Shown in pieces: positions 11,201-39,144 of a stretch of 64,000 nt of DNA. The notes under the pieces were generated by a model, which saw only the letters and a list, made by a program, of their open reading frames with translations, was not told where the DNA came from and ran no database searches. Source of the stretch: Deltaproteobacteria bacterium. Lineage in GTDB: Bacteria; Myxococcota_A; Polyangia; Haliangiales; Haliangiaceae. Position 1 is the first letter of the stretch. Every line of letters begins with the position of its first letter. A program made the translations under genes and the position numbers. The stretch covers positions 1 to 64,000 of the forward strand of contig JACCTC010000127.1 in assembly GCA_013812655.1 (NCBI GenBank). The letters are read 5' to 3'.

Positions 11201-12099
11201 TGACGTCGAACGAGCTGCGGCACCGTTGCACGGTGACAACGAAGCTCGGGCCGGTTCCCCACGTGCTCGGGGACGAGTCACGGCTCGGCCAGGTCTTCAT
11301 CAACCTGCTCGTCAACGCAGCGCACGCGATCCCGGACGGTCGCGCTGACGACCACCAGATCCACGTTTCGACGCACACCGACGACGCGGGCCGCGCTGTG
11401 ATCGAGATTCACGACGACGGATGCGGCATGGCGCCGGACGTGGTGAAGCGGATCTTCGATCCGTTCTTCACGACGAAGGACGTTGGCGAAGGCACGGGGC
11501 TGGGGCTCGCGATCGGCCTCGGCATCGTGAAGGCGCTCGGCGGTGAGATCCTCGTCGACAGCACGCCCGGCGTCGGCTCGACGTTCACGGTCACGTTGCC
11601 ACCGATGACACCGGGCTCCGAGATTGTCTCCGCGCGTGCTCCCTCACCCGCCCCCGTGCTGCCCGACCTGCCGGACTCGCCCGAGACGTCCGTGACCGCG
11701 CGGCTCGTTCCACGATCCAGCCAAGTGCTGTTGATCGACGACGACGACCGGCTGCGCACGTCACTCGCGCGGATGCTTCGCAAGGAACACACGATCACGC
11801 TGGCGAGCTCGGCGCGCGAGGCGCTAGCCCACCTCGATGCCGGCGAGACCTTCGACGTGATCGTCTCGGATCTCATGATGCCGGAGATGACCGGCATGGA
11901 GCTCCACGCCGCGCTACACCGCCGCGATCCCGAGCTGGCGGCTCGCATGGTCTTCATGACCGGCGGCGCGTTCACCGAGGACGCCCAGCTGTTCATCGAC
12001 CAGATCCCGCATCGCTGGCTCCAGAAGCCGTTCGAGGTGGCCGAGATCCGGCAGCTGGTGCGGCGCGTGCTCGCCCGACGGCGAGCGGACGCCGCTTAG
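8269..12099 (+). CDS. Hybrid histidine kinase with beta-propeller sensor and C-terminal receiver
   Basis: 1276 aa. A signal peptide (residues 1-22) leads into a long periplasmic region of two-component propeller repeats with recurring LWV motifs (for example LLWVASEDGLYQYDG, ALWVGTNRGVLE), then a Y_Y_Y-type Ig domain (about 625-715). One membrane helix lies near 724-745. Inside the cell follow a PAS domain (about 760-880), HisKA with GIAHEINNPLAY (His near 902), HATPase_c (G-box GTGLGLAIGLGI), and a receiver domain from about 1150 with phospho-acceptor Asp near 1201 in VSDLMMPEMTG. The architecture resembles Bacteroides hybrid sensors but ends in a receiver rather than an AraC domain. It starts with GTG at 8269. 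Ligand unknown; extracellular glycans are bound by some relatives. Confidence 0.92.
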   Translation: MRTATALTVIIFLSTVAAVRADPPSQYPFRRFGVEHGLQNLSLNQISQTGDGLLWVASEDGLYQYDGTRFRRFDVAEGLPSSHVKALLPERRGLWVGTERGVALVVDGQVTTTALTQSLPAELVNALTLGPDGTLWVASDGGLYHERGDRFELAPGWPGGASSAVRVEVDGRVIAGRVRDVISGDGAGSWTVYGESAGFGLERIDAIARTGDNTLWVRSSRYLWECKETLATCRDVSSDLPDASELGRLLVDRHGTLWVTTRRGIAHRLADGTWDVIGAAEGLPARSVLGAFEDREGSMWLIGDELFQMLGRGLWRSYTAAHDFPADTVWSMMRDRRGALWVGTNRGVLEATAESWTVFPGTEPFAFNAVIEVNGAIYAAGSGPDVLRLDSRTRTTTVLGPGAELAGDNFNSMVHEGDTLWVASWKSGLLAMTEGDGKRTWRRESLPRGNDRENVNQLVLDRHGRLWATGTEGLAVRDDRGWHRLDEREGLTARSTQYIVERASGEICVAYSEAHGVTCFRYGTEVTNIRHLTTAHGLASDKVYLLGEDARGRLYVGMGIGVDVIDGGSHEHFSTATGLAGDDCAARAFWSDPDGDVFIGTTRGMARFASARYTAPPLPPEPVILGVSLGGTPLGTGPPRAPKPGSASLYVQFAAPTFGNRAQIELQVRLLPLESEWRMTSVGEARYHQLPPDDYRFEVRSRIAPGAFGPATTVVFSIEPAWWQTLGFRVLVALALVIALLLVIAWRARVSTARAARRIVLRSEASFRALIDQSPDAVIVHREGTVIYANHKALESLGYPTPDEIVGGPALALVHPDDHGAVLARAAMLARGEPLPVRELRFQRKDGSHLVAEVSALTVDFGGTPATLAVLRDCTERKALETRLVLADRMASIGTLAAGIAHEINNPLAYVKGNLAFLAEELPESAVSPALRVALNDAVEGATRVQRIVAGLKTFSRADHEQRASIDVQRALELALRMTSNELRHRCTVTTKLGPVPHVLGDESRLGQVFINLLVNAAHAIPDGRADDHQIHVSTHTDDAGRAVIEIHDDGCGMAPDVVKRIFDPFFTTKDVGEGTGLGLAIGLGIVKALGGEILVDSTPGVGSTFTVTLPPMTPGSEIVSARAPSPAPVLPDLPDSPETSVTARLVPRSSQVLLIDDDDRLRTSLARMLRKEHTITLASSAREALAHLDAGETFDVIVSDLMMPEMTGMELHAALHRRDPELAARMVFMTGGAFTEDAQLFIDQIPHRWLQKPFEVAEIRQLVRRVLARRRADAA

Positions 12100-13667
12100 A
12101 ACGCCTTGACGATGCCCGCGGTCACCGCGTGGAAGACGTCCGTGCGCTGCACGCCGCCCTCGGGGTGCATGCGCTGCGAGCTGTCGACCTTGTCGCCGAA
12201 CGTCGCCTTCGTGAACTGCAGGTCATACGTGGCCTGGATGTCCATCGACGGCTTCCAGCGGTAGGTCAGCCCGGCGCCGACCGTCGCGCCCTTCGCGGCC
12301 GGGCTCTTGCCGTCCTCGAGGTTCTTGGTCTGCTTGTAGCTCGCCGTGAACAGCATCGCGTCGAGGCTGAACCGCAGGCCGAGCTTGTTCGAGAACCGCG
12401 GCATCGCGAGCGCGACACCGAGCTTCGGCGCGATCATGATCTCCGACGGCAACATCGCCGTGTTCTCGGCGAGGTTCACGGCCTTCGCGACCTGGAAGGA
12501 CTGGTAGTGGAGGCCGGCGCGACCGAGCAGCATCATTCCGCTCTTGCGCCGGAAGTCGATCCCGAAGATGCCGCGCACGTTCAGGTTGTGCAGCGAGATG
12601 CTCGTCGTCTTGTCCATCGGCGTCTTGATCCCGGGGATCGCCTTCGCGTAGTCGTACGTGAGCTCGGTGCCGACCACGAACTTCGACTTGTAGGGACGGT
12701 AGTAGCCGCCGCCGAGCGCGAGCGTCGCTGCAGCCGTCGAGATGTTGTAGTTGTTCGGGACGCCGGCCGCGCCACCGGGGGTTCGCAGCGCCTGTGACAG
12801 GAACGAGACGCCGAGCCGCACGCGCATGTCGATCTGGCTGTCGCCGCCACCGCCGATCGCGGGCGGCGCAGACTTCTTCTGGACGTCGAGCGACGAGCTC
12901 AGCACGTAGCCGAGGTCACCTTCTTCGTTCTCGACCTCGGTGTACTTGCCCTTCGTCTCGCCAGTGGGGAACAGGACCTCGCCGGCCTTAGCGACGTAGA
13001 TCTGCTCGCTCTTGGCGTCGGGATCGACGTAGACCGGGGTCTTCGAGGCGACGCGCGCCTTCTTGCGGGTGTCGACCTCTTCCTCGTCGTCTGCATCCTC
13101 GTCGCCGGCGTCAGCGTCCTCGTCGCCCTCATCGAGCGGATCCTCGTCATCCTCGTCGACAGCCGGCTTGGTCTTCGGCTTGACAGCCTCTACCGCGGGT
13201 TTGATCTTGGTGACCTTCGCGATCGGTTTCTTGACGTCCTCGTCGGCATCCTCGTCGTCGGCGTCATCGTCGCCGCCGTCCTCTTGCCCTTCGCCCACCG
13301 CATCGGCGCCGATGCGGTCATCGGGCGCTTCGTCGCTCGCGCCGCCGAACCCGCGCTTGACGCCACGGCCATCGACGAACGGGCGACGCCGCGTGTTCCG
13401 GGCGATCTCGTCGCCACCGGGCATGTCGACCGTGCTGCGCGCGACGAAGCCGGTGCGGCCGGATACCCGGACCTTCAGCCACCGACCCTCCTTCGCGATG
13501 ACGGTCATCGCCTTGCCCTCGTCGACCTTGAGGAGGACCTTGGCGCGCTCGCCGGGGCGCGCGTACAGCTTCGTCGGTTGGTTCGTCCGGACCTTCTCGG
13601 CGTGGCTGATGGCAGGGTCACCAGCGACGCCGAAGAGCAAGACGAGGATCAGGACACTCACCCTCAT
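12096..13667 (-). CDS. Envelope protein: two SH3b domains, acidic linker, beta-barrel
   Basis: 523 aa with a signal peptide (cleavage near residue 23). Residues about 25-85 are an SH3b domain (TKLYARPGERAKVLLKVDEG), followed by a very acidic Asp/Glu stretch (about 110-205) and a second SH3b (about 205-265; TPVYVDPDAKSEQIYVAKAG). The C-terminal 240 residues alternate in the way of an outer-membrane beta-barrel and end in a non-polar residue (VTAGIVKAF). SH3b domains often bind peptidoglycan, so the protein may tie the outer membrane to the cell wall. Its stop codon overlaps that of the hybrid kinase gene, which converges on it. Confidence 0.85.
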   Translation of the reverse strand: MRVSVLILVLLFGVAGDPAISHAEKVRTNQPTKLYARPGERAKVLLKVDEGKAMTVIAKEGRWLKVRVSGRTGFVARSTVDMPGGDEIARNTRRRPFVDGRGVKRGFGGASDEAPDDRIGADAVGEGQEDGGDDDADDEDADEDVKKPIAKVTKIKPAVEAVKPKTKPAVDEDDEDPLDEGDEDADAGDEDADDEEEVDTRKKARVASKTPVYVDPDAKSEQIYVAKAGEVLFPTGETKGKYTEVENEEGDLGYVLSSSLDVQKKSAPPAIGGGGDSQIDMRVRLGVSFLSQALRTPGGAAGVPNNYNISTAAATLALGGGYYRPYKSKFVVGTELTYDYAKAIPGIKTPMDKTTSISLHNLNVRGIFGIDFRRKSGMMLLGRAGLHYQSFQVAKAVNLAENTAMLPSEIMIAPKLGVALAMPRFSNKLGLRFSLDAMLFTASYKQTKNLEDGKSPAAKGATVGAGLTYRWKPSMDIQATYDLQFTKATFGDKVDSSQRMHPEGGVQRTDVFHAVTAGIVKAF

Positions 13668-13903: not shown

Positions 13904-14830
13904 ATGACCTTGCAGAAGCGTTCGTACACCTCGGGCCACTTCGAGCTCATGATCGACGGTCACAAGACGACCGCCTATCTGAAGTCCGTCGACGGTGGGC
14001 ATGTCAAAGCGAATGCGATCGATGAGCCGATCGGTCCGCACAACCAGCGCATCAAGCACACGTCGACGGTCGAGATCGAGCCGTTCTCGATCGACTTCGG
14101 CATCTCCGGTGCGAAGGACATCATGCGGTGGGTGCAGATGGCCTTCAACAAGGAGATCTCGCGCCGCAGCGGCATGATCACGCACGCGAACTTCGATCTT
14201 CGCGCGACCTACGAGCACGAGTTCTACGACGCGCTGCTCACCGAGGTCACGTTCCCCGCGCTCGACGGCTCCTCCAAGGAGAGCGCGTTCATGAAGATGA
14301 AGATCCAGCCGGAGCGTGTCGTCCCGCGCAAGGTCAGCAACGGCCCGGCGATCACCGGCGCCGGCGGCACCAGGCAAAAGCTTTGGACGGCTGCGAATTT
14401 CCGCTTCAACATCGATGGCCTCGACGACATGCGCTACACGAACAAGATCGAGTCGTTCACGGTCAAGCAGGGCATCAAGAAGCTCTACACCGGTGAGGAT
14501 CGGTTCCCGCAGATCGAGCCCACGAACCTCCAGTTCCCGCACATCGTCGGCACGATCTCGCTCGAGTACGCCGACCAGCTGCTCAAGTGGCACCAGGATT
14601 ACGTCATGAAGGGCACGCGTGACGATCGCGCGGAGAAGACTGGCTCGCTCGAGTTCCTCGCGCCCGACCTCAAGACCACGCTCTTCCAGATCAACCTGTT
14701 CGAGATGGGCATCCACGCCCTCCAGATCCAGCAGTCGCAGGCGAACCAGGACTCGATCAAGCGCGTGAAGTTCGATCTCTACGTCGGTCGCATGCAGCTC
14801 GACGGCGGCGGCTCGCTCGGCATGGAGTAG
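13904..14830 (+). CDS. Phage tail-tube-like protein with two fused tube domains
   Basis: 308 aa. The protein is an internal duplication. Residues about 8-145 and 160-305 align: FELMIDG with FRFNIDG, HVKANAI with TVKQGI, IDFGISGAKDIMRWVQ with GTISLEYADQLLKWHQ, and a final strand region ending MKIQPERV against FDLYVGRM. Each half has the FxFxIDG opening and strand-helix-strand order of the T4 gp19/gpV/Hcp tail-tube family. Single-domain tube proteins of phages and contractile injection systems are about 150 aa, so this is a tandem fusion. No sheath, baseplate, spike or AAA gene is nearby. A lone secreted, membrane-associated or structural role cannot be told apart; I see no signal peptide. The ATG follows a GAGG site. 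Confidence 0.7.
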   Translation: MTLQKRSYTSGHFELMIDGHKTTAYLKSVDGGHVKANAIDEPIGPHNQRIKHTSTVEIEPFSIDFGISGAKDIMRWVQMAFNKEISRRSGMITHANFDLRATYEHEFYDALLTEVTFPALDGSSKESAFMKMKIQPERVVPRKVSNGPAITGAGGTRQKLWTAANFRFNIDGLDDMRYTNKIESFTVKQGIKKLYTGEDRFPQIEPTNLQFPHIVGTISLEYADQLLKWHQDYVMKGTRDDRAEKTGSLEFLAPDLKTTLFQINLFEMGIHALQIQQSQANQDSIKRVKFDLYVGRMQLDGGGSLGME

Positions 14831-14834
14831 CGGC

Positions 14835-15503
14835 TCACATGCGCCAGTAGACGAGCAGGTCATAGAAGACGTGCGCGTAGACGACGTGAGCGAGCGAGCG
14901 AAACCAGAAGATCAACGCGAACGCGACGCCGGCGAGACAGCGGAAAGCGAACGCATGGGTCGACCATGCCTCGCCGTAGATGCCGATGTGGTGGGCGGCG
15001 GAGAACGCCACCGACGAGGCGACGATGGCGACGGCGATGGCAAGGCGTGAGGATAGAGCGCGCTGTCCGAGCGCGACGAGCCCGCCGAGCAGGCCGAGCC
15101 GGAACACGAGCTCCTCGTGGACGCCGGCGCCGAGCGCGTTGACCATCTCACCGCCGGTGATGCCGAGCCCGAGGACGCGGTCGAGGATCAGCGTGATCAA
15201 GGCGCCGAGCGTGAGCGCGTAGAGCGCAGCCTCGAGGAAGACCGGCGCCACCACGTCGATGGTCAGCGATGCCCAGCGACGGCCCTGGCGGATCCAGATC
15301 AGGAAACCGAGCGCGATGACGGCGTAGACCAGCAAGTAGGTCGTGCGGCCGAGCGAGCTATAGACAGCGCGGGTGATGACATCGGCGCCGTTGACGCGGC
15401 CCGCGAACAGCACGCCGATCTCGTAGGCGAGGAGCAGCGGGAAGATCAACACGAGACTCGCCGGGAGGTCGCCGTGTCCGGCCCAGGTCGCGCCGCGCTT
15501 CAT
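14835..15503 (-). CDS. CPBP (CAAX-like) intramembrane metalloprotease
   Basis: 222 aa with about six to seven hydrophobic helices. The family signature is present: HEELVFRLG (EExxxR, first metal/catalytic motif) near residue 135 and FSAAHHIG near 170. These Abi/CAAX proteases cleave within membranes, or in bacteria act in bacteriocin self-immunity and envelope protein processing. The ATG at 15503 lies 5 bp after the stop of the M16 peptidase gene, so both are probably co-transcribed. Confidence 0.85.
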   Translation of the reverse strand: MKRGATWAGHGDLPASLVLIFPLLLAYEIGVLFAGRVNGADVITRAVYSSLGRTTYLLVYAVIALGFLIWIRQGRRWASLTIDVVAPVFLEAALYALTLGALITLILDRVLGLGITGGEMVNALGAGVHEELVFRLGLLGGLVALGQRALSSRLAIAVAIVASSVAFSAAHHIGIYGEAWSTHAFAFRCLAGVAFALIFWFRSLAHVVYAHVFYDLLVYWRM

Positions 15504-15508
15504 CGTCT

Positions 15509-18349
15509 TTACGGCCTCCGGCCGCGCGAGCGCACCGGCTTTTGGCGCGGGGCAGGAGCGGCCCTGCGCTCCGCGGGAACCTTGCTCGGCGCCAGCGGCT
15601 TGGTCGGCGCCGGCGACTTGATCGGCGCCGGCGGCTTGGTCAGCGACCGCTTCGTCGCGGCGGGGCTGGCGACCGGCGGACGGATCGTGGCGGTGATCAT
15701 TCGATCGACGCGGAGGTACTTCGCCGCGGCGGCGGTGATGTCGGCGGGCTTGACCGCGTGGATCGCGTCGGCGTAGCGCGACCAGCTTTGCCAGCCGAGG
15801 CCATAGGCCTCGTGATAGACGAGCGCGTTCGCGACAGCGGCGCGGCGTTGCATCGCGATCTCGTGGCTGCCGATCAGGTAAGTGCGGGCACGCTCGAGCT
15901 CGGCAGCCGTGACGCCGTCGACGCGGACGCGCTCGAGCTCGGCCCGCACCACGGCGACTGCCTCGTCGAGCTTCGCCGGCGAGCACGACAGATAGACGGC
16001 GATGAAGCCCGGATCGACGCCCTCGATCGAGTGCGCGGAGATCCGGTAGGCGAGCGCGCGTTTCTCGCGGAGCTCGGCGAAGAGCCGGCCGCTCTGGCCG
16101 CCGAGGATCGACACCAGGATCTCGAGGGCAAACCGATCGGGCGTGTCCACGGTGGCGCCCGGAAAGCCGACGACGAGGTGTGCCTGGGCGCGGTCGAGAA
16201 ACGCGAACACCTCGCGGTCGGTCGCGGGGCGACCATCGAATCCCGCTCGCCAGCCTTCGCTGGCTCGCTCCACCTTGGACACGAACGGCTGCACGGCCGG
16301 CTTCGCGCGGCTGATCCGATCGAAGCGAGCGCGCACCTTGGTGATGACCTCGTCGACATCGACATCGCCGACGACCGAGAGCGTGAGCGCCGAGGCCGGG
16401 TAGCGCTCGCGATAGAACGCCGCGAGCGCCGGCCGCGACACCGTGGAGATCGTCGCCGCGGTGCCGAGCACGTCGCGCGCGTACGGATGGTCGCGGTAGA
16501 GCGCCTCGCTGAACAGCCGGAACGCGGCGTGCGTCGGACTGTCGGCCTGGGCTTGTTGATCGTCGACGAGGAGCCGGCGTTCGCGCGCGAGCTCGTCGGC
16601 GGGCAGCGTCGGGTCGAGGATGCAATCGGCAAACAGCTCGAAGCCCGGCTGCCACGTGCGCGCGAGCCACTCGGCAGCGACGCCGAAGCTGTTGCGGCCG
16701 GCGACGCCTGCCAGCGAGCCGCCGAGGCGATCGATACGATCGGCGACGGCCGTCGCGTCGAGCATGCCGCAGCCGCGCGTGATCATGCGCGCGAGCAGCG
16801 TCGACATCCCGCTCTGGACGGGCTCCTCGACGCGCTGACCGCCGCGCCACACTGCACGCATCGCGACGACGGGCACCGAGGGGTCGCGGCGGACGAGCAG
16901 CGTGATGCCATTCGCGAGCACGACGCGCTTCTCGATCGGCGCGACGACGGTGGTCTGCTTGGTCGACAGCGAGCGACGGACGCGCGCCTCGGCCTGCCGC
17001 GCGAACACACCGCCTCCGGCGCCGCGGCGCGGCTTCGGCAAGATCGCCGCGACGCTCGCGTTACCGGGCTGCAGGTAGCGCCGGATCGCCTGCGAGACAT
17101 CGTGCCGGCGGACGCTGCGAATCCGGTCGAGGTAGACGTGACCGAACTGCGGATCGCCGGCCACGGTCGCGTACCAGCCGAGCGAGCGTGCGCGACCCTG
17201 CGCGGTCTCGAGCTGCCGCACGAACCCGGTCTCCGCGGCGATCCGCGCCTTGTCGAGCTCGTCGGAGGTCAGCTCGTCGGCGAGCCACTTGCCGTGATCG
17301 ACGAGGGCGCCGACCGTCTTCTGCGCATCGCCCGGACGCGCAGTCGCCGACAGCACGAGCAGGCCCGGATCACGGAGTGCGTGGACGTTCGCGTACGCCG
17401 ACGTGACGAGCTGATCGCGATCGCGCAGAAGCCGCGGCAGCCGCGCCGACTCGCTCTGGCCGAGCAGGATCGCCGCGACGTCGAGCGCCGCGAGATCGGG
17501 GTGCCGTGCGGCGGGCACGTGGAAGCCGACGGCGAGGTGCGCCTCGGTGACGTCGCGGTGCAGCGCCGTCGCGCGCGCGTCGGTCTGCATGGGTTCGGCG
17601 CTGACCCGCCGCAGGGGCCGGCCGGCCGGCATCGAACGGAACCGCCGCTCGACGCTGCGCCGCACCCGTACCGGATCGACGTCACCCGCGACGACGAGCG
17701 TCAGGTTATCGGCGACGTAATAGCTGCGAAAAAACTCGACGAGCGTGCGTTCGGTGAGCCGCTGCACGCTCTCGGCGGTGCCGATCACGGGGCGGCGGTA
17801 GGGGTGCGCGACGAACGCGGTCGCGAACAGGCTCTGCGCGACGGTGCGTGCCGGATCGTCGCTGCCCTGCCGGATCTCCTCGAGGATCACCTGGCGTTCG
17901 CGCGCGAGCTCCTCGGGATCCACGCGCGGCGTCATCAGCGTGTCGCCGAGCGCATCGACCGCGACGTCGACGTGATCGCGCCCTAGCACCGCGTGATAGA
18001 CGGTGTGATCGAACGCGGTCCACGCGTTGATCTCGCCGCCGCCGGATTCGATCGTGCGGACCAGCTCGCCGAGGCCGTAGTCGCCCGAGCCCTTGAACAG
18101 CATGTGCTCGACGAAGTGCGCGGTGCCGGCCTGGTCGGGACCCTCGTCGGCAGACCCGACGCCGACCCACGCCTGCACCGCCGCGACCGGAGCCGGATGG
18201 CCGGGCGCGATGTGGAGCGTCAGTCCGTTGTCGAAGCGGTGGGTGAGGATCTCGTGCACGGCGGTCGTTGCCGCCGGCGCCGCCCATAGCCAGGCGGCCA
18301 CCAGCACGGCGGCTCGCAAAGCATAGGCATGGGGTCGGGTGCGGGGCAT
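15509..18349 (-). CDS. Periplasmic M16-family (pitrilysin-type) zinc metallopeptidase, two-unit
   Basis: 946 aa with a signal peptide (about 1-28). The first M16 unit has the inverted zinc motif HFVEH (His78, Glu81, His82) and the distal acidic stretch LARERQVILEEI, and should be catalytic. The second unit (from about 480) has the fold-typical NGITLLVRRDPSVPVVAMRA opening but lacks HxxEH and is the non-catalytic half, as in other M16 proteins that close over a peptide. A Pro/Ala/Lys-rich tail (last 50 residues) is unusual and may bind nucleic acid or wall polymers. I chose the ATG at 18349 for the signal peptide. It heads an operon with the CPBP protease. Confidence 0.92.
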   Translation of the reverse strand: MPRTRPHAYALRAAVLVAAWLWAAPAATTAVHEILTHRFDNGLTLHIAPGHPAPVAAVQAWVGVGSADEGPDQAGTAHFVEHMLFKGSGDYGLGELVRTIESGGGEINAWTAFDHTVYHAVLGRDHVDVAVDALGDTLMTPRVDPEELARERQVILEEIRQGSDDPARTVAQSLFATAFVAHPYRRPVIGTAESVQRLTERTLVEFFRSYYVADNLTLVVAGDVDPVRVRRSVERRFRSMPAGRPLRRVSAEPMQTDARATALHRDVTEAHLAVGFHVPAARHPDLAALDVAAILLGQSESARLPRLLRDRDQLVTSAYANVHALRDPGLLVLSATARPGDAQKTVGALVDHGKWLADELTSDELDKARIAAETGFVRQLETAQGRARSLGWYATVAGDPQFGHVYLDRIRSVRRHDVSQAIRRYLQPGNASVAAILPKPRRGAGGGVFARQAEARVRRSLSTKQTTVVAPIEKRVVLANGITLLVRRDPSVPVVAMRAVWRGGQRVEEPVQSGMSTLLARMITRGCGMLDATAVADRIDRLGGSLAGVAGRNSFGVAAEWLARTWQPGFELFADCILDPTLPADELARERRLLVDDQQAQADSPTHAAFRLFSEALYRDHPYARDVLGTAATISTVSRPALAAFYRERYPASALTLSVVGDVDVDEVITKVRARFDRISRAKPAVQPFVSKVERASEGWRAGFDGRPATDREVFAFLDRAQAHLVVGFPGATVDTPDRFALEILVSILGGQSGRLFAELREKRALAYRISAHSIEGVDPGFIAVYLSCSPAKLDEAVAVVRAELERVRVDGVTAAELERARTYLIGSHEIAMQRRAAVANALVYHEAYGLGWQSWSRYADAIHAVKPADITAAAAKYLRVDRMITATIRPPVASPAATKRSLTKPPAPIKSPAPTKPLAPSKVPAERRAAPAPRQKPVRSRGRRP

Positions 18350-37896: not shown

Positions 37897-39144
37897 TCAA
37901 TATCGCAGCCAGCGGACCATCTCGCGCAGGCTCGGTCGCTTGCCATACATGAGGACGCCAACGCGATAGATCTTCGCCGCCGCGCGGACGACGAGCGCGG
38001 TCGACAGGATCAAGATCCCGAGCGACAGGGCAACCTCCCCGAGCGACGCGCCGCCGAGGACGTAACGCATCGGCATCAGCAGCGGCGACCAGAACGGCAC
38101 CATCGTCATCACCGTCGACGCGGTGCCGCGGGGATCGCTGCTGATCACCTGGAAGCAGAGGACGCCGATCACGAGCAGCATCGTGACGGGCATCTGCACC
38201 TGCTGGGTCTCCTGCTCGGACGACACCATCGCACCTACCGCGGCATACATCGCGGCGTAGAAGAAGAAGCCGATGATGAAATAGGCCAGGACGACGGCGA
38301 TCTCGGCGAGCTCGAGTGCAGGCAATGTCGGGCCGGCGCCAGTCACGCCGAACAACCCGAGGAGCTCGTTGCGGTACGCGAGCGTGATCGCGCCCATCGT
38401 CAACCACACCGAGACCTGGACGAGCCCGGCCGCGCCGACGCCGAGGATCTTCCCGGCCATCAGCGAGCGCGGCTTGACGGCGGCGACCATGAGCTCCATC
38501 ACGCGGCTCGTCTTCTCCTGGACGACGCTGCGCATGACGGCCACGCCGTACAGCGTGATCACCATGTAGAGGATGAAGCTCAGGATGTAACCGACGAAGA
38601 ACGCGGCGAGCCCGGAGGTCGCCTTCGTCGAGCCGGTGTTGAGCTGCGACAGGAAGTTCGGCCGCGCGAGGAGCTTGTCGAGCGTGTCGGGGGAGATGCC
38701 GGCACGCCGCCCGCGCTCGCCCTGGACGACCTTGCGGACGCTCTCCTCGAGCATCATCGCGACGATCTGGCTCGACCCGTTGTCGCCCTCGTAGATGATG
38801 AACTCGCCCTCGAGCGCGTGCTTCGGGATCACGATGAAGCCGTTGATCTCGTTGTCGCGGATGCGATTCTTCGAGGTCTCGTACGACGTCTCGGGTGGGA
38901 CGATCTTCGGGATCCACCGCATACCGCGGAGCTCGGCCGCGATCTGCTCGCCGAGCGCACCGGAGCGATCGACGATCTCGACCTTGGCGCCGACGACGCT
39001 CTTCGACGCGATCAGCGCCGGGATCACGATCATCGCGACCATGAAGACCGGGCCGAGCAGCGTCATCGCGACAAACCACTTCGACTTGACGCGCTCGAGC
39101 AGCTCGCGCCGCGCGATCACGAACGTGTCACGGACGGTCTTCAC
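37897..39144 (-). CDS. ABC-2 type transporter permease (NatB-like)
   Basis: 415 aa. Helix near 25-47 followed by a large extracytoplasmic loop of about 130 residues and then five membrane helices (for example FFVGYILSFILYMVITLYGV). The motif VRDTFVIARRELLERVKSKW at the start and EKTSRVMELMVAAVKPRSLM after the second helix are typical of ABC-2 exporters in the NatB group. The ATG overlaps the ATPase stop by four bases (ATGA). Substrate unknown; sodium, antibiotics or lipids are transported by relatives. Confidence 0.88.
   Translation of the reverse strand: MKTVRDTFVIARRELLERVKSKWFVAMTLLGPVFMVAMIVIPALIASKSVVGAKVEIVDRSGALGEQIAAELRGMRWIPKIVPPETSYETSKNRIRDNEINGFIVIPKHALEGEFIIYEGDNGSSQIVAMMLEESVRKVVQGERGRRAGISPDTLDKLLARPNFLSQLNTGSTKATSGLAAFFVGYILSFILYMVITLYGVAVMRSVVQEKTSRVMELMVAAVKPRSLMAGKILGVGAAGLVQVSVWLTMGAITLAYRNELLGLFGVTGAGPTLPALELAEIAVVLAYFIIGFFFYAAMYAAVGAMVSSEQETQQVQMPVTMLLVIGVLCFQVISSDPRGTASTVMTMVPFWSPLLMPMRYVLGGASLGEVALSLGILILSTALVVRAAAKIYRVGVLMYGKRPSLREMVRWLRY

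Follow-up and report, generated by a model that had tools for sequence, protein, structure and literature searches.

The main tube proteins of contractile injection systems (CIS) and eCIS, such as Afp1, Pvc1, All3324 and the Streptomyces CIS tube (8bl4), are single-domain proteins of about 140-150 aa that form hexamers. Another type of tail tube is found in siphophages: T5, phiCbK and P74-26 build trimeric tubes from two-domain subunits (PMC8718954, PMC10034513, PMC10038345), and in the literature found these sheath-less phages are the only source of such tubes (PMC8718954, PMC10034513). In solved tail tubes the contacts from ring to ring are made by the beta2-beta3 loop (PMC8718954). Two tube-like domains per chain also occur in the hub proteins gp27/VgrG and T5 pb3, the hubs being pseudo-hexameric trimers. 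In type VI secretion, orphan hcp genes encode paralogs of the tube protein away from the main cluster and supply the apparatus, and Hcp also chaperones effectors. A study of uncultured Myxococcota reported a gp19 tube gene as the highest-expressed gene in two MAGs and placed such genes in eCIS clusters (PMC11937823).

Here, a gene for a two-domain tail-tube protein is described from a Deltaproteobacteria bacterium (GTDB family Haliangiaceae, assembly GCA_013812655.1). The gene, referred to as paralog A, lies in a window of 64,000 nucleotides, positions 1 to 64,000 of contig JACCTC010000127.1. Paralog A is probably an orphan: a paralog of the main inner-tube subunit belonging to a CIS whose genes lie elsewhere in the genome, and most likely serves that CIS as an alternative subunit (probability roughly 0.6).

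A Tail-Tube Protein With Two Fused Domains

Paralog A consists of two tail-tube domains in tandem (Table 1), as a first-pass annotation made from the sequence had proposed. The Pfam model PF06841 (Phage_T4_gp19) matches it in two stretches (E=6.6e-11) and with 42.6 bits, above the curated cut-off of 28.2. Taken alone, the N half stays above this cut-off (32.1 vs 28.2 bits) and the C half gives a weak match below it (14.7 bits, E=0.029). TIGR02241 (phage tail region protein) scores 29.7 bits against a cut-off of 62.4, which leaves the protein outside that family. BLAST between the two halves as single sequences finds no similarity; when each is represented by a profile of 23 relatives, the alignment spans 142 columns (E=1.2e-13). 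The motifs that had been listed for both halves are there in a looser form, as FELMIDG and FRFNIDG, HVKA and TVKQ, and RWVQ and KWHQ. The N-terminus, read by inspection, carries no export signal.

AlphaFold2, run on a 21-row alignment (mean pLDDT 82.9, pTM 0.80), predicts two beta-sandwich domains of the tube type, both of which contain one helix and a long beta2-beta3 hairpin. The hairpin regions, at 30 and 24 aa, have the lengths found in 69 cytoplasmic relatives (SD 0.9 and 1.9). The annotation had named halves without a tube fold as the outcome that would speak against it; in the model and in Foldseek, both domains match the fold of CIS main tubes (6rap_A, 6j0f_a, 9gts_1a). Single-half matches to CIS tubes have TM scores by target of 0.75-0.82, including 0.82 for the Streptomyces tube 9gts_1a, 0.81 for Pvc1 (6j0f) and 0.79 for Afp1 (6rap). 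Foldseek aligns one half per target, and the tube fold of the C half rests on the AlphaFold2 secondary structure and on full-length matches.

These whole-chain matches are T5 p140 (7qg9_G), the SH-Ab15497 major tail protein (8xan_A, TM 0.65/0.66), the T5 tail tube (9iny) and P74-26 (8ed0), and T5-type pb3 hub proteins appear at ranks 5 and 7, so that a hub would also fit the fold taken by itself. The likeness to trimeric pseudo-hexameric rings that had been suggested is supported by the predicted chain, which resembles T5 p140/pb6, P74-26 and SH-Ab15497 (PMC10034513, PMC10038345). Those tubes likewise hold two tandem tube domains in a chain of about 300 aa and match over its full length (TM ~0.55-0.66); however, they belong to siphophages without a sheath and share about 10% sequence identity with the protein described here. 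A PDB sequence search with the single protein gave nothing, and matches came only with the alignment profile of the two-domain proteins, whose best solved relatives are the CIS main tubes 8bl4, Pvc1 and Afp1. A relative of the cluster type (L109:8931-9851) has the same AlphaFold2 fold (pTM 0.81) and matches the same structures. Kofleriaceae, Myxococcales and Polyangium MAGs are among the named sources of two-domain relatives, which puts the window on the Polyangia side of Myxococcota. Some homologs have long open N-terminal extensions, of up to 858 codons; fused domains were considered and rejected here, most of this length being open-frame read-through in GC-rich DNA.

Table 1. Features of paralog A and its neighbours in the window, and loci of exported relatives.
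Feature	Position	Strand	Basis or remark
Divergent neighbour, SH3-like, predicted envelope protein (by inspection)	12096..13667	-	Beside A orthologs at 13/15 A loci; outside CIS
Two-domain tail-tube protein (paralog A), 308 aa plus stop	13904..14830	+	Pfam, AlphaFold2, Foldseek
N-terminal tube domain, ~residues 12-143	13937..14332	+	Pfam gp19 residues 12-138; AlphaFold2 strands 12-143
Beta2-beta3 (inter-ring type) hairpin region, N domain, 30 aa	14000..14089	+	AlphaFold2; length comparison
Helix of N domain, residues 71-81	14114..14146	+	AlphaFold2
Inter-domain linker, residues 144-165, pLDDT down to 58	14333..14398	+	AlphaFold2
C-terminal tube domain, ~residues 166-300	14399..14803	+	AlphaFold2, profile comparison, tree
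Beta2-beta3 (inter-ring type) hairpin region, C domain, 24 aa	14468..14539	+	AlphaFold2; length comparison
Helix of C domain, residues 224-235	14573..14608	+	AlphaFold2
Convergent neighbour, CPBP-type membrane protease (by inspection)	14835..15509	-	Conserved beside A orthologs; outside CIS
Exported two-domain tube	L030:8112-9089	-	
Exported two-domain tube	L113:7137-8201		
Exported two-domain tube	L118:8159-9028		Opitutaceae
Exported two-domain tube	L155:7507-8448		Myxococcota
Exported two-domain tube	L157:6052-7548		
Exported two-domain tubes	L208, L210, L222, L223, L224		

A Contractile Injection System in the Same Genome

The first-pass annotation had described the gene as stand-alone and its partner system as unknown. 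Within the window this description holds, with no CIS gene at the locus; however, the genome (8.1 Mb, 508 contigs) encodes a second two-domain paralog, and a genome-wide search placed a CIS on two other contigs. The gp19 loci of the genome are three: paralog A in the window, the two-domain paralog B on contig C108, and a single-domain tube on contig C318. The CIS cluster, with sheath, tube, LysM/CIS_tube and VgrG genes, is split over contigs C219 and C318. C219 stops inside the main sheath gene or shortly beyond it (the sheath match spans 38548-38991 and the contig ends at 39154). C318 opens with the tail of the small gene p135; a sheath gene, tube1 (the single-domain tube), the very large gene Big, a gene of the CIS_tube/LysM type and a split VgrG follow in that order.

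Relatives keep a fixed order of sheathA, two-domain tube (paralog C), p135, sheathB, tube1, Big, LysM, VgrGa and VgrGb, read as far as the contigs reach (L027, L028, L033, L035, L038, L045, L048-L053, L060, L061); 13 relatives were counted for the order sheath, two-domain tube, p135, second sheath, single-domain tube. More clusters are found in L153 and, by coordinates only, in others. Paralog C was not seen on the assembled contigs of the genome studied here; because relatives carry these pieces as one cluster, the gap separating C219 from C318 is where it would be expected.

Other features of these clusters can be recorded. In L027:8661-10648, L028:8858-10848 and L153:9390-11427, two tandem two-domain tube genes lie between the main sheath and p135. 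The p135 protein (L045:8299-8703, minus strand) is small and highly conserved, has a C-terminal CPxC motif, and has no Pfam or NCBIfam match; its gene comes immediately after that of the main tube in the CIS clusters of Myxococcota that were read. Big (L045:1698-5804, minus strand), which lies between tube1 and the LysM gene, encodes ~1370-1670 aa with no Pfam match; among relatives its conservation is much lower than that of the adjacent genes. A 16-Mb genome of the same class (G500) has 12 sheath-domain matches, suggesting many contractile systems.

Distribution of the Paralogs and Their Exported Relatives

Genomes of the genus typically hold all three two-domain genes, which the tree resolves as three ortholog sets. 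Throughout the genus, orthologs of paralog A are full-length and stay in synteny, with a divergent SH3-like gene on one side and a convergent CPBP/M16 peptidase block on the other; no CIS gene lies near them. A conserved operon around A was rejected, the conserved neighbours being ordinary genes in divergent or convergent orientation. Over the same genome pairs, identity is 57% for A, 74% for C and 93% for the main sheath. Apart from G358, an assembly that is 75% complete, all checked genomes with a confident cytoplasmic two-domain protein have sheath genes. As to paralog B (L025:1992-2915, minus strand), a Ser/Thr protein kinase gene lies downstream on the same strand, likewise in L046, L059, L063, L154, L116 and L117; the distance is 75-356 bases and the pattern occurs in some genomes of two families.

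A different group of relatives appears in nine genomes without a sheath match, a finding that relies on one Pfam model and on partly incomplete assemblies (G034, the Chloroflexi MAG G313, the Opitutaceae genome G318, G305, G131, G395, G397, G473, and G631 with two proteins). With matches below 100 bits left out (e.g. the G384-G390 group), they encode ten confident two-domain proteins, and 10/10 carry a Sec, Tat or lipoprotein signal predicted by inspection and hydropathy scan. The same approach finds no export signal in the cytoplasmic two-domain groups. In G380, which has weak sheath matches, the two-domain protein also has a predicted signal, and one or both hairpins are clearly shortened in 7 of the 11 signal-bearing proteins.

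The exported copies in genomes without a sheath match speak for a recruitment of the two-domain fold elsewhere, and A itself might have been recruited away from the CIS, forming cytoplasmic rings or short tubes with a separate role as a scaffold, cargo store or regulator. The conserved non-CIS neighbourhood would agree with such a role, and the faster evolution of A than of C would fit a changed function as well. Recruitment is nevertheless unlikely for A, which has kept the tube hairpins and fold and whose genomes also encode the CIS.

Origin of the Two-Domain Tube

Paralog A differs from known CIS main tubes in having two fused domains in its 308 aa instead of one of about 150 aa, and in lying outside any CIS cluster. 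Paralog C, in relatives, holds the main-tube slot after the main sheath. In outgroup Myxococcota from beyond this class, a gp19 protein with one domain and 143-155 aa takes the slot between sheathA and p135 (L139, L141-L145, L150; L146 and L149 are similar), and sheathB is followed by tube1 just as in the two-domain lineage. Since tube1 is the only single-domain gp19 protein in five members of the genus (G003, G005, G006, G008 and G010), no other main tube is left in these genomes.

A tree built from the individual domains unites the N and C halves in one clade (UFBoot 98). The halves and the outgroup main tubes together split from tube1 with modest support (UFBoot 80), which places the halves with main tubes rather than with Afp5-like adaptors. 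By hhalign, the N half is nearest to the outgroup CIS main tube (E=1.3e-18) and the C half is nearest to the N half. With each half closest to the other (98% support), the main tube gene appears to have been duplicated and fused in this lineage. The simplest history suggested by these comparisons would be that a gene of ~150 aa in the Afp1/Pvc1 slot was duplicated and fused in the ancestor of the lineage. Descent of the halves from CIS main tubes makes the fusion look independent of the siphophage tubes. A phage origin was rejected, with no match in 50,697 phage records, and viral contigs held no relative of the A group. The one C-group match among viral contigs (L247:1-6898, IMGVR_UViG_3300047160_028022) carries sheathA, C, p135, sheathB, tube1 and Big; it is a 6.9-kb bacterial CIS fragment, probably misclassified. 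Plasmids queried with paralog C gave no match.

This ancestry bears on one role suggested by the first-pass annotation, a hub or adaptor. Under that proposal A would be a hub, adaptor or terminal ring, a pseudo-hexameric trimer joining the tube to a spike or cap. T5 p140 and the hub pb3 are among the trimeric two-domain folds, gp27/VgrG hubs likewise have two tube-like domains, and a single specialised ring would need no place in the cluster. A hub role has become quite improbable, however: the cluster comes with separate hub genes of the VgrG/GPD type, a LysM/CIS_tube adaptor and the Afp5-like tube1. In addition, paralog A has no Phage_GPD/VgrG match in Pfam or NCBIfam, its closest relatives are main-tube copies, its halves group with main tubes and not with tube1, and its closest functional relative occupies the main-tube slot of the cluster.

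Another proposal concerns the cluster itself: tube1 may build the whole tube, and the two-domain protein there may be some other component, for instance a terminator. Here, too, the chances seem low. tube1 is the stronger gp19 match of the two, but its matches include Pvc5- and Afp5-like adaptors (the NCBIfam CIS5 model stays below its cut-off), outgroups with tube1 also have a separate single-domain tube in the slot, the tree divides tube1 from main tubes and halves, and the two-domain profile finds main tubes as its best relatives in the PDB.

Discussion

Paralog A is favoured as an alternative CIS subunit because of its fold, its hairpins, its synteny throughout the genus and its co-occurrence with sheath genes. 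Three copies would close into one pseudo-hexameric ring, as in the tail tubes of T5 and P74-26, so that three fused copies would form a ring usually made of six single-domain copies. Paralog A from the window and paralog B from C108 would then provide rings, as alternatives or as additions, for a tube that uses the same sheath and baseplate, with A entering the CIS tube in a manner comparable to orphan hcp products. Paralog A shares with orphan hcp genes the location of a tube-subunit paralog away from the main cluster; however, it belongs to another branch of the protein family and another system, has two domains, and its use by the CIS is putative. In a further reading A carries cargo: as a tube-like subunit it would bind an effector and be loaded into the tube or onto it. 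This is very improbable: effector-chaperoning Hcp offers a parallel and the dispersed paralogs A and B have diversified, but the A locus has no effector-like partner or extra domain and its neighbours are ordinary conserved genes.

For the lineage as a whole, the odds are about even that these Myxococcota, on the Polyangia side, build the CIS needle from fused double-tube trimers, a three-fold tube in a six-fold sheath, with further paralogs that stand alone and some that are exported. No description of a two-domain tube in a contractile system was found in the open-access literature, subscription papers and preprints lying outside the search, nor was one of interchangeable tubes in a CIS found in the open-access literature. 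If the double-tube trimers are confirmed, a contractile system with a pseudo-hexameric main tube would be known for the first time. Two different tube faces would have to fit six like sheath subunits, and tube-sheath coupling could thus be tested against single-domain relatives in the same phylum. The exported copies, if borne out, would represent tail-tube rings recruited to the cell envelope, a new use of the fold. The conservation of orphan copies in nearly every genome of the genus raises the question of whether these bacteria have interchangeable CIS tubes.
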